Shown: positions 26,058-29,910 of the stretch, piece after piece
Position numbering within the stretch: the first letter of the stretch is position 1
Layout: the number at the start of each line of letters is the position of its first letter
Source of the DNA: Balneolaceae bacterium
GTDB taxonomy: Bacteria > Bacteroidota > Rhodothermia > Balneolales > Balneolaceae
Assembly: GCA_017640605.1 (NCBI GenBank)
Contig: JAEPQH010000011.1
Span: 1 to 64,000 of the forward strand
Direction: 5' to 3'
DNA: 64,000 nucleotides
The notes under the pieces: generated by a model
What the model was told of the DNA's origin: nothing
Databases searched by the model: none
The model's input: only the letters and a program-made list of their open reading frames with translations
Position numbers and translations under genes: made by a program

Positions 26058-26233
26058 GTTAATTTTTTCAGAATTAAAATAAAAATTACATCCCTATTCT
26101 AAGTTTTTATAGAATATTATTCTGTTTGTAATTTAAAAACTTAGCCTACCAAATTAAGTATTCGAATTGTATTGCCGAAAAAACCTATTCACTAAGGTTG
26201 TATATAAACAGTACAAGCCTTAAGCTTTGAGTA

Positions 26234-26308
26234 ATGAAATTTTCAATCCGACATACTATGTGTAAGCCTGTTTGCTGTAAATGCATGTGCATGATGATGC
26301 GCACTTAG
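26234..26308 (+). CDS. Cys/Met-rich leader peptide of the met operon
   Basis: A 24-codon ORF that starts MKFSIRHTM and continues CKPVCCKCMCMMMRT before TAG (26306). Ten of its last sixteen residues are Cys (5) or Met (5), counting the internal Met at codon 9, a composition not expected by chance; it is placed right before mutually exclusive hairpins. By analogy with trp or his leaders it should make the ribosome stall when charged Cys-tRNA (or Met-tRNA) is scarce. Codon 9 (26258) is an alternative start. No strong Shine-Dalgarno is seen, and the peptide matches nothing I know. Upstream bases 26058-26233 hold no gene. Confidence 0.72.
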   Translation: MKFSIRHTMCKPVCCKCMCMMMRT

Positions 26309-26370
26309 GGCTTCGTATAAATAGTTTCACAACAAAGCCCTTTTGAATGCAATAACAGAAGGGCTTTTTT
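26264..26370 (+). promoter_or_regulatory. Leader-peptide transcription attenuator (segments 1-2-3-4)
   Basis: Segment 1, AAGCCT (26264-26269, Lys-Pro codons), can pair with segment 2, GGGCTT (26308-26313, overlapping the stop codon). Segment 2, as AGGGCTT (26307-26313), can instead pair with segment 3, AAGCCCT (26335-26341): the antiterminator. Segment 3, as AAAGCCCTT (26334-26342), also pairs perfectly with segment 4, AAGGGCTTT (26359-26367), followed by T: the terminator. A ribosome stalled on the Cys codons (26261-26290) would cover segment 1 and free segment 2, allowing read-through. One completing translation would sit on segment 2 and allow termination. The Met codons lie very near segment 2, so Cys is the better-placed signal. 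Confidence 0.72.
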
Positions 26371-26413
26371 GTTGGATTTCAATTTTCAATCGTTCTTTAA
26401 AATCTATTGCATT

Positions 26414-26539
26414 CTCATTAAGAAAGGTGGAGGGATCAGGTCCTACGAAGCCTTGGCAACCGCCACGAATATCGAAAGCCGTTCGTGGAAAGGTGCTACA
26501 TCCTGCCTGATGAAATAATTTTCATCGGGAAAAAATGAG
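26414..26539 (+). promoter_or_regulatory. SAM-I (S-box) riboswitch aptamer
   Basis: All conserved SAM-I parts are present in order: P1 strands CTCATT (26414-26419) and AATGAG (26534-26539), AAGAAAGGTGGAGGGAT, the kink-turn and pseudoknot region CCTACGAAGCCTTGGCAACC, a P3 hairpin, AAGGTGCTACATCCTGCC and a P4 hairpin. S-adenosylmethionine binding stabilises P1. The gene order behind it (metY, osmC, metX) fits methionine control. Confidence 0.96.
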
Positions 26540-26597
26540 TTCGAAAGATGTTGGCGAAAAGCCTTGTTCGGACTCAACGAACAAGGCTTTATTTATT
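26537..26597 (+). terminator. Expression platform and terminator of the SAM-I riboswitch
   Basis: Terminator stem AAAGCCTTGTTCG (26558-26570) and CGAACAAGGCTTT (26578-26590), 13 perfect pairs, then ATTTATTT. A competing antiterminator is visible: GAGTTCG (26537-26543, overlapping the 3' strand of P1) pairs with CGGACTC (26569-26575). SAM would hold P1 and permit termination, so this is an OFF switch. Confidence 0.92.
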
Positions 26598-26604
26598 TAA
26601 TTAA

Positions 26605-27963
<1,359 letters not shown>

Positions 27964-28039: not shown

Positions 28040-28576
28040 ATGAGCATTTTAACACTTACCACCGACCCACTTGAAGAAAAACTGAACAAGACTATAAAGA
28101 ACGTTATCAATCACGTTCGTGAATACCCTAGCGAAAAGGATGTCACCTTTTCTGTGGATTCTAAGCTAGAACGCGGCTTTAGATCGGAGATTAAAGTCCG
28201 CGATTTTAACTTTATCGTAGATGAACCCAAAAACCTCGGTGGCGAAAACGAAGCGCCTAATCCTGTAGAATATGTATTGGGCGCCTTAGCATCCTGCCAA
28301 GAAATTGTAATTAAGGCTTATGCCGGGCAGTTGGGTATAAAGTTAAACTCCATTCGGGTTGAAGCCTCCGGGGATCTCGATCTTCAAGGTTTTTTCAATT
28401 TAAGTGATGAGCGACCGGGCTTTAATCAAGTTCGATACTCGACTGTAATTTCGACCGAAGAAGAAGACCCTGAAAAACTTCAATTACTAAAGGATTTTTC
28501 AACGAGCCGTTGCCCGGTTTTGGACATCATCTCAAATCCGGTTCCTGTAATTGGCGATGTAGTTTTTACTAATTAA
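28040..28576 (+). CDS. OsmC/Ohr family thiol peroxidase-like protein
   Basis: A 178-aa OsmC-fold protein with both active-site Cys: GALASCQEIVIKAYA and SRCPVLDII. Family members reduce organic hydroperoxides or polysulfides using these thiols. Position between metY and metX suggests a role tied to sulfide/persulfide handling rather than classical Ohr. The N-terminal extension is cytoplasmic with no signal peptide. Flanked on both sides by terminator hairpins. Confidence 0.88.
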   Translation: MSILTLTTDPLEEKLNKTIKNVINHVREYPSEKDVTFSVDSKLERGFRSEIKVRDFNFIVDEPKNLGGENEAPNPVEYVLGALASCQEIVIKAYAGQLGIKLNSIRVEASGDLDLQGFFNLSDERPGFNQVRYSTVISTEEEDPEKLQLLKDFSTSRCPVLDIISNPVPVIGDVVFTN

Positions 28577-28637: not shown

Positions 28638-28644
28638 TATTCCT

Positions 28645-29691
28645 ATGGTTGATTTTGAAACACAAACATTCTCTAAAAGCTTCATAACAGAATCTGGTGA
28701 TGAGCTACAAAACCCACATTTAGTGTATCACACATGGGGGAAACTAAACAATCAAAAGAATAATGTAATTCTGATTTGCCACGCTCTTACCGGAAATTCA
28801 GACGCGAGCGATTGGTTTAGTGGACTCTTCGAAACCGGTGGAATAATCGATCTCGATAAACACTTTGTAATTTGTATAAATCACCCCGGAAGTTGTTACG
28901 GCTCTATTGGACCTACTTCCATCGATCCAAATCTCGGAAACCCTTATCAGGCTAATTTTCCTGAATTAACCATTCGCGACATTGTTCGTTTAGAGCAGCA
29001 ATTGTTGGATGAACTTGGAATCCAAGAAATCGAACTCATCATCGGCGGCTCAATGGGCGGCATGATTGCTTTAGAATTTTGCGTGATGGATTCCCGAATT
29101 AAATCCGCCTGCCTGATCGCTATGGGTGCTTCCCATTCGGCGTGGGCAATTGGTATTAGTGAAGCTCAACGGATTGCTATCAAAGCTGATCGAAACTGGA
29201 ACGACGGTTTTTATACAAATGATTCACCTCCTGCTCAAGGTTTAGCCGCTGCACGTTCAATGGCAATGATCACGTATCGAAGTCCGCAAGATTACGAGCG
29301 AAAATTCGGCCGAAACTGGAACATCCAGAAAAAGCAGTTTGAAGTAGAATCCTATTTAGGCTACCAAGGTGAAAAACTAGTGCAGCGTTTTGATGCAAAT
29401 TCCTACATCACTTTAACCAAAGCCATGGATTCTCATGATATCGCCCGAGGACGTGGTACGGTTAAAACTGTGCTAGAACGACTCACTATCCCCATTCTCA
29501 TCATCGGTATCGATTCAGATTTGCTATATCCCATCCACGAACAAATTGAACTCGCCGAACACCTCCCAAACTCTACGTTTAGAGAAATTAAATCCAAATA
29601 CGGCCATGATGCTTTTTTGATTGAGTTCGAGCAGATGAACCGAGCATTGCGACAATTCCGGGAACAGCCCCACTCTTCTTTGATTGATTGA
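28645..29691 (+). CDS. metX: Homoserine O-acetyltransferase
   Basis: Activates homoserine with acetyl-CoA, supplying the substrate of MetY. A 348-aa alpha/beta-hydrolase-fold acyltransferase: HALTGNSDASDWF, HPGSCYGSIGPTSIDP, nucleophile Ser136 in GGSMGGM, the RSMAMITYRSP segment, the acid in GIDSDLLYP and the catalytic His in KYGHDAFLIE. I chose the ATG at 28645 (MVDFETQTF) because the in-frame TTG at 28609 lies inside the terminator stem-loop. O-acetylation (not O-succinylation) is inferred from the pairing with MetY. Confidence 0.95.
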   Translation: MVDFETQTFSKSFITESGDELQNPHLVYHTWGKLNNQKNNVILICHALTGNSDASDWFSGLFETGGIIDLDKHFVICINHPGSCYGSIGPTSIDPNLGNPYQANFPELTIRDIVRLEQQLLDELGIQEIELIIGGSMGGMIALEFCVMDSRIKSACLIAMGASHSAWAIGISEAQRIAIKADRNWNDGFYTNDSPPAQGLAAARSMAMITYRSPQDYERKFGRNWNIQKKQFEVESYLGYQGEKLVQRFDANSYITLTKAMDSHDIARGRGTVKTVLERLTIPILIIGIDSDLLYPIHEQIELAEHLPNSTFREIKSKYGHDAFLIEFEQMNRALRQFREQPHSSLID

Positions 29692-29727
29692 TTCGTTATT
29701 CGTTATTCGTTATTCGTTATTCGTTAT
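29691..29727. repeat. Heptanucleotide tandem repeat (ATTCGTT)n
   Basis: Five perfect copies of ATTCGTT plus a partial copy, starting at the last base of the metX stop codon. Noncoding; resembles the short tandem heptamers seen in intergenic DNA of several bacterial phyla. Copy number may vary between isolates. Confidence 0.92.
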
Positions 29728-29774
29728 GAGAATAGAGGTTAGTCTTATCTGCGGCGTACTTCAAGAAATCTGTT

Positions 29775-29839
29775 CTCACTCCTCACTCCTCACTCCTCAC
29801 TCCTCACTCCTCACTCCTCACTCCTCACTCCTCACTCCT
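29775..29839. repeat. Heptanucleotide tandem repeat (CTCACTC)n
   Basis: Slightly more than nine uninterrupted copies of a CTCACTC/CACTCCT heptamer (65 bp), strongly strand-biased (pyrimidine-rich on plus). Lies 42 bp before the TTGACA promoter element of the dcw cluster. Confidence 0.95.
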
Positions 29840-29880
29840 GAACCAAAAAAATTAATTATTACCCATGATGTGGATTTAAT

Positions 29881-29910
29881 TTGACAGATTATGGTAAAGA
29901 AGGGTACATT
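29881..29910 (+). promoter_or_regulatory. Probable sigma-70-type promoter of the dcw cluster
   Basis: TTGACA (29881-29886), 18-bp spacer, TACATT (29905-29910). It is immediately followed by the MraZ operator, as expected for mraZ autoregulation. Sequence match only. Confidence 0.6.

Follow-up and report, generated by a model that had tools for sequence, protein, structure and literature searches.

The window, a stretch of 64,000 nucleotides from a Balneolaceae bacterium (contig JAEPQH010000011.1, positions 1 to 64,000), carries a metY-osmC-metX operon, which makes methionine precursors from sulfide and is preceded, in order, by a leader ORF, an intrinsic terminator (T1), a SAM-I riboswitch and a second terminator (T2) (Table 1). 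The nearest named MetY, at 95% identity, comes from a Balneolaceae MAG, and a cysK-type gene is located elsewhere in the source genome. An earlier note on this DNA had described a cysteine and methionine leader peptide followed by a riboswitch, and its anatomy is borne out by examination of the locus: the 24-codon leader ORF contains five Cys and five non-start Met codons, all after codon 8; the three pairing segments, both arms of T1 and its U-run lie exactly where they had been placed; and the SAM-I element 3′ of the leader does have an antiterminator and a terminator of its own. The aptamer matches the full RF00162 model (1-108) with 69 bits (gathering score 44.4; E = 5e-14), and the candidate riboswitch has an antiterminator/terminator platform upstream of metY. 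An extension of the SAM-I P1 stem by GCAUU/GAUGU, which appears in the MFE fold, did not look conserved on inspection by eye. The T1 region (26330-26375) has a folding energy of -19 kcal/mol versus -7.6 (sd 2.5) for shuffled sequences, corresponding to a z of -4.5, with 0 of 200 shuffles as good. A short tandem repeat, translated SSLLTPHSSLLTPHSSLLTP, is found 3′ of metX at 29684-29884 of the window. In G022, G025, G030, G091 and several genomes of genus g11, SAM-I and metY are separated by an extra gene of ~130 codons, whose product by eye resembles a CoA-binding-domain protein.

The sequence immediately 5′ of the leader ORF suggests how its transcript might begin. A TTG at -36 and a TA at -13 from the ATG are present in 25 of 26 clade-A orthologues, and the rRNA promoters of relatives read TTGAC ... 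TATCTTTG. Because the ATG is situated 13 nt past the TA of the -7 box and 36 nt past the TTG, transcription probably begins at or beside the ATG itself, making the leader mRNA leaderless. This start is one of three features that the earlier reading missed, the others being a boxA-like element and a pairing between the T1 loop and the bases that precede P1 of SAM-I.

Table 1. Coordinates in the window of features at the metY locus
Feature	Position	Strand	Remarks
Promoter-like element	26198-26229	+	TTG 26198-26200; -7 box TAAGCTTTG 26221-26229
Leader ORF MKFSIRHTMCKPVCCKCMCMMMRT*, 24 codons	26234-26308	+	Cys/Met control codons; from composition and orthologues
Segment 1, AAGCCU	26264-26269	+	Paired with GGGCUU in the MFE fold
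Segment 2, AGGGCUU	26307-26313	+	Overlaps the leader stop codon
Terminator 1 (T1)	26334-26370	+	AAAGCCCUUUUG 26334-26345 / CAGAAGGGCUUU 26356-26367, U-run to 26370
Segment 3 (antiterminator part), AAGCCCU	26335-26341	+	Alternative partner is segment 2
T1 loop strand, GAAUGCAAUA	26345-26354	+	Complement of 26405-26414
BoxA-like element, GUUCUUUAAAA	26392-26402	+	Between T1 and SAM-I
Pre-P1 strand, UAUUGCAUUC	26405-26414	+	Pairs with T1 loop; abuts SAM-I P1
SAM-I riboswitch aptamer (RF00162)	26412-26541	+	Rfam match
SAM-I antiterminator	26536-26576	+	UGAGUUCG 26536-26543 with CGGACUCA 26569-26576; 8 bp, read off the sequence
Terminator 2 (T2) of the SAM-I switch	26558-26590	+	Intrinsic terminator
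metY, O-acetylhomoserine aminocarboxypropyltransferase/cysteine synthase	26632-27963	+	TIGR01326, 682 bits, cut-off 495
OsmC-like protein gene	28040-28576	+	NF041052, 82.7 bits, below cut-off 95
metX, homoserine O-acetyltransferase	28642-29691	+	NF001209, 387 bits, cut-off 331

Distribution and composition of the leader ORF

We gathered metY relatives and SAM-I sites from 92 Balneolaceae genomes, then from the class and then from the phylum. The readable Balneolaceae SAM-I sites number 102, of which 80 are metY-type and 22 are metH-type, the latter forming one distinct sequence group that is named after its source-genome member, L074. An equivalent Cys/Met ORF is found 5′ of SAM-I at 73 of the 80 metY-type sites and at 0 of the 22 metH-type sites, a type to which L074 was assigned by reading its ORFs and the remainder by their common sequence. 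L074 (G000:C26:230176-230290) is the second SAM-I of the source genome and lies 5′ of metH-like ORFs; all 22 sites of this type have neither leader nor boxA. This pattern is more than chance. Five of the 73 leaders start with GTG or TTG, and a verdict of no leader for five genomes was dropped because the leaders there begin with these codons. The small ORF on which the earlier note's reading depended is therefore present in related genomes, and equivalent leaders also occur in other Balneolales families (for example, MKQIATLISCCMCCMRESHTA and MSQQQNISIAKRSCMMLCN). Judged from such comparisons, the predicted two-switch design is conserved in the order Balneolales, and so is not a chance arrangement.

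The seven metY-type sites that have no leader belong to G036, G060 and five genomes of genus g19, and in G093, G109 and G112 (L211-L213, family f2) a Cys/Met ORF is present with no recognised terminator; together these indicate that a leader is not required at every site. The start and end of the f2 ORF can pair (AUCUCACA.CAC with GUG.UGUGAGAU in G093) and boxA follows immediately, possibly reflecting a different mechanism. The leaderless g19 sites (G080, G082, G084, G086 and G088) have a small hairpin, CAAGCUCAUUAAGCUUG, immediately 5′ of boxA, and the AAGCU inside it complements an AGCUU 5′ of SAM-I. Outside Balneolales, no convincing leader was found in about 40 Rhodothermales sites or among the 64 loci sampled elsewhere in Bacteroidota; candidates in G191 and G215 from the phylum sample were inspected and not accepted. 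At L175, from Melioribacteraceae, a Met/Cys leader (MKIKNLNIIGNFSNMCMRMQHIY) and a terminator-like hairpin occupy the same place, about 120-195 nt 5′ of the SAM-I core at 2697, and this leader is either convergent or ancient. Within the source genome there are five copies of TGYATGTGYATG; of the four outside this locus, three (the fourth being C30:10170) proved on reading not to be leader ORFs.

The composition of the leaders is strongly biased. Across 81 leaders and 1738 residues, Cys accounts for 19.0% and non-start Met for 13.8%, or 32.8% combined, versus 5.9% for Cys and 0.6% for Met when the same DNA is read in its other two frames. Every leader contains Cys and 80 of 81 contain a non-start Met. 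Of the sensor for Cys and possibly Met that the earlier note had proposed, the Cys part stands and the Met part can be put more strongly, as the occurrence of Met in nearly all leaders suggests that both would be read. When leaders were aligned in pairs, Cys/Met positions were shared in 809 cases and present in one member in 278, whereas the other residues had changed in 727 cases and stayed the same in 926. Codon differences comprise 473 non-synonymous and 152 synonymous changes, with no sign that the peptide is under strict purifying selection, and the weakness of such selection outside Cys and Met speaks against a peptide with a function of its own. Genera differ in how their Cys and Met residues are ordered and spaced. 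Retention of these residues while the rest drift, in an order that is itself variable, fits control codons and not a peptide that acts through its sequence.

Alternative pairings around T1

The anatomy of segment 2 was determined in the 75 leaders that have T1. It consists of 5-10 bp, its first base falls at -14 to +5 nt relative to the stop codon's end, and its partner is the 5′ arm of T1, such that a 2:3 helix of this length near the stop codon is present in 75 of 75 leaders scored. Relative to dinucleotide shuffles the helix has a mean z of 2.4, with 58 of 75 at p <= 0.05, a count that takes related genomes as separate cases and that weighs less than the differences between clades. By the shuffle test alone some genera are not significant, including g2 and g12. 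Segment 2 matches its own segment 3 better (mean score 18.9) than it does the segment 3 of other clades (15.5). Compensatory changes sought in the 2:3 and 3:4 stems were found clade by clade, along with shifts in register, as the earlier note's pairings had led one to expect. The 2:3 pair is AGGGCUU/AAGCCCU in the source genome, AGGGCUUU/AAAGUCCU in Balneola, and in the Rhodohalobacter group CAGAGGG/CCCUCUG or CGGAGGG/CCCUCCG; Fodinibius has ACCGAAGG/CCUUCGGU or UCCGAAGG/CCUUCGGA, and there segment 2 falls within the last codons. In 72 of 75 folds segment 2 is taken up by a pairing within the leader, and in the source genome, where the MFE fold joins it to segment 1, that segment may cover it in the absence of a ribosome.

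The geometry of the control codons relative to segment 2 is also informative. Measured from its first nucleotide, the last Cys or Met codon lies mostly 10-23 nt from segment 2, and the last Met lies 13-23 nt away in most genera. A stalled ribosome covers about 12 nt from the A site. With this footprint and this spacing, stalling on nearly all of the control codons would free segment 2, and a ribosome at the stop codon would cover it. The earlier note had suspected that the Met codons are so close that stalling there may partly cover segment 2; this is borderline for the last two of the source genome, at 13 and 10 nt, but does not hold for Met18 and Met20, at 22 and 16 nt.

Predicted antiterminator and terminator energies have medians of -13.6 versus -16.8 kcal/mol and are comparable in most clades, being close in the Rhodohalobacter and Fodinibius groups. 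In the source genome the simple 2:3 hairpin is about -9 kcal/mol versus about -15 for T1, and across the source genome and genera g2, g4, g5 and g21 the corresponding ranges are -7 to -12 and about -12 to -17 kcal/mol. The 2:3 hairpin is clearly weaker than T1 in these lineages, and therefore antitermination there would have to be kinetic or aided by other contacts.

Elements between the two switches

Between T1 and SAM-I is the boxA-like element GUUCUUUAA (GUUCUUU), a motif similar to boxA. It is located ~10-25 nt 5′ of nearly every metY-type SAM-I and is kept at leaderless sites; at metY-type SAM-I, 78 copies occur in the last 60 nt versus 1 in the 30,880 nt farther upstream. The motif resembles GTTCTTTGAGAA in the rRNA leaders of relatives, the comparison having been made there because the source assembly has no 16S gene. 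Likewise, GTTCTTTAAAA is similar to AGTTCTTTGAGAA and AGTTCTTTGGAAA in the rRNA leaders of G040 and G001, and G003 has GTTCTCTGACA. In the Bacteroidota sample (L263-L326), GTTCTTT or GCTCTTT is found 10-25 nt 5′ of SAM-I at 37 of 64 loci, where it is independent of a leader peptide and wholly missing from families f30 and f22. A possible reading of this motif is that NusB-S10 antitermination is linked to the riboswitch. Alternatively, GUUCUUUAA, which hardly varies, could pair with the invariant AAGAAA of SAM-I.

The T1 loop can pair with a ten-base stretch ending at P1 of SAM-I in genera g1, g2, g4, g5, g7, g10 and g21. Compensated pairs are GAAUGCAAUA/UAUUGCAUUC, GAAUGCAACU/AGUUGCAUUC, GAGUGUAUGAU/AUCAUGCAUUC and GAAUGCAAA/UUUGCAUUC. 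Across 18 distinct sequences, pairing is seen in 91% of cells, a value reached by 0 of 2000 partner shuffles, compared with 31-47% in slid registers, and five standard pair types are seen at one pair. Most of the pairing is lost in G006 and G029. Sought in all clades, it was found in these seven genera only and is absent from Rhodohalobacter- and Fodinibius-type leaders. Such a helix could stabilize P1 by stacking or could tie the two switches together. A tentative and somewhat doubtful extension is that the attenuators are physically coupled, with the bases of the T1 loop, either in the hairpin or once freed by antitermination, docking on the strand 5′ of P1 and altering aptamer folding, while boxA loads NusB-S10 and presets the antitermination state of the polymerase before it arrives at the riboswitch.

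Proposed mechanism and comparison with known systems

The arrangement very probably represents ribosome-mediated attenuation at Cys and Met codons acting in series with SAM-I on the metY operon. Conservation, composition, pairing covariation and geometry form the direct basis of this model; transcription, translation, stalling, termination, SAM binding and the AND logic are what we infer from them. A ribosome would translate the probably leaderless ORF and, when charged tRNA-Cys or tRNA-Met is scarce, would stall on the Cys/Met run and cover segment 1. Segment 2, so freed, would pair with segment 3, T1 would not form and RNA polymerase would go on. With both charged tRNAs plentiful, the ribosome would reach the stop codon and cover segment 2, allowing T1 to form. 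Polymerase that passes T1 would then meet the SAM-I OFF switch, where high SAM would cause termination at T2. Two intrinsic terminators in series imply two checkpoints, and the output would approximate (low Cys-tRNA OR low Met-tRNA) AND low SAM. Given that the metH SAM-I has no leader, the extra Cys/Met checkpoint would fall on the sulfide-incorporating step of sulfur entry and not on metH. The name of TIGR01326 includes cysteine synthase and a cysK-type gene exists elsewhere, making a link between cysteine demand and the metY operon plausible.

The strongest competitor to this model, although an unlikely one, is that the leader senses tRNA-Cys only, with the Met codons as passengers and methionine supply read through SAM-I alone. 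No leader is without Cys, which is also the commoner of the two residues, the last two Met codons of the source genome are only 10 and 13 nt from segment 2, and SAM-I already reports methionine supply. However, a non-start Met in 80 of 81 leaders, far over the 0.6% of other frames, and a last Met 13-23 nt from segment 2 in most genera count against passenger codons. It is far less probable that the nascent peptide itself binds a ligand, such as copper, another metal or a thiol stressor, and that ligand-dependent stalling controls T1 in place of tRNA charging. CCMCMC-like runs do resemble metal-binding sequences and the control codons are near the C-terminus, but Cys and Met are ordered and spaced differently from one genus to another while other residues drift, and the regulated genes concern sulfur and methionine, not metal. 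Equally remote is the view that T1 is a constitutive partial terminator or a small-RNA source, with the ORF encoding a functional small peptide or being translated to no regulatory effect; the stability of T1 in isolation agrees with this, yet the 2:3 helix is kept despite changes in register and sequence, and outside Cys and Met the leader is under little purifying selection (152 synonymous versus 473 non-synonymous differences).

If series attenuation is correct, a classical-looking ribosome-mediated attenuator is wired in series with a metabolite riboswitch across Balneolales, and one operon would read the charge of two tRNAs as well as the end product SAM. The metH SAM-I provides a natural control within the same genomes, and the logic is directly testable. 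In addition, the helix between the T1 loop and the pre-P1 strand, together with the boxA-like element, raises the question of whether stacked RNA switches communicate or act as independent gates. A literature search, of incomplete coverage and with most subscription papers outside it, found no translated Cys/Met leader in series with SAM-I.

Like the attenuators of the trp, his and thr type, the metY leader combines a short ORF with late control codons, mutually exclusive 2:3 and 3:4 pairings, a putative competing 1:2 pairing and an intrinsic terminator; unlike them, it has mixed Cys and Met codons, a probably leaderless ORF and a riboswitch next instead of a gene, and it occurs in Balneolales. 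At metE, tandem SAM and AdoCbl riboswitches likewise put a met gene under two successive inputs, with both inputs being metabolite-binding RNAs, whereas here one is a translated ORF. Actinobacterial leader ORFs with Cys codons precede cys operons in Mycobacterium and Propionibacterium and cbs in Bifidobacterium (PMC1262725), and share with the metY leader runs of Cys codons near the stop and a location 5′ of sulfur genes; however, they lack both a riboswitch and conserved terminator hairpins, and Met codons are not described. The Salmonella mgtCBR leader contains tandem attenuators for ATP and proline, both ORF-based and additive (PMC3641672), and is therefore similar in that two attenuators, a proline-codon ORF among them, respond to different signals within a single leader mRNA, but the second attenuator at metY is a SAM aptamer. 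In Clostridium acetobutylicum, ubiG-mccBA is controlled by a Cys T-box and an S-box (described in PMC2940859), so that Cys-tRNA charge and SAM likewise govern one sulfur operon through premature termination. There, however, the T-box is a tRNA-binding RNA, and the S-box acts on an antisense RNA that starts at a downstream promoter, and the two do not follow one another on a single mRNA. The Xanthomonas met-operon SAM-I also binds uncharged initiator tRNA (PMC7270179), and one met leader thereby reads SAM and Met-tRNA status, but the expression platform binds the tRNA directly and control is translational. The modules at metY, namely trp/his attenuation, Cys-codon leaders and SAM-I, are thus each known, as are multi-input leaders.
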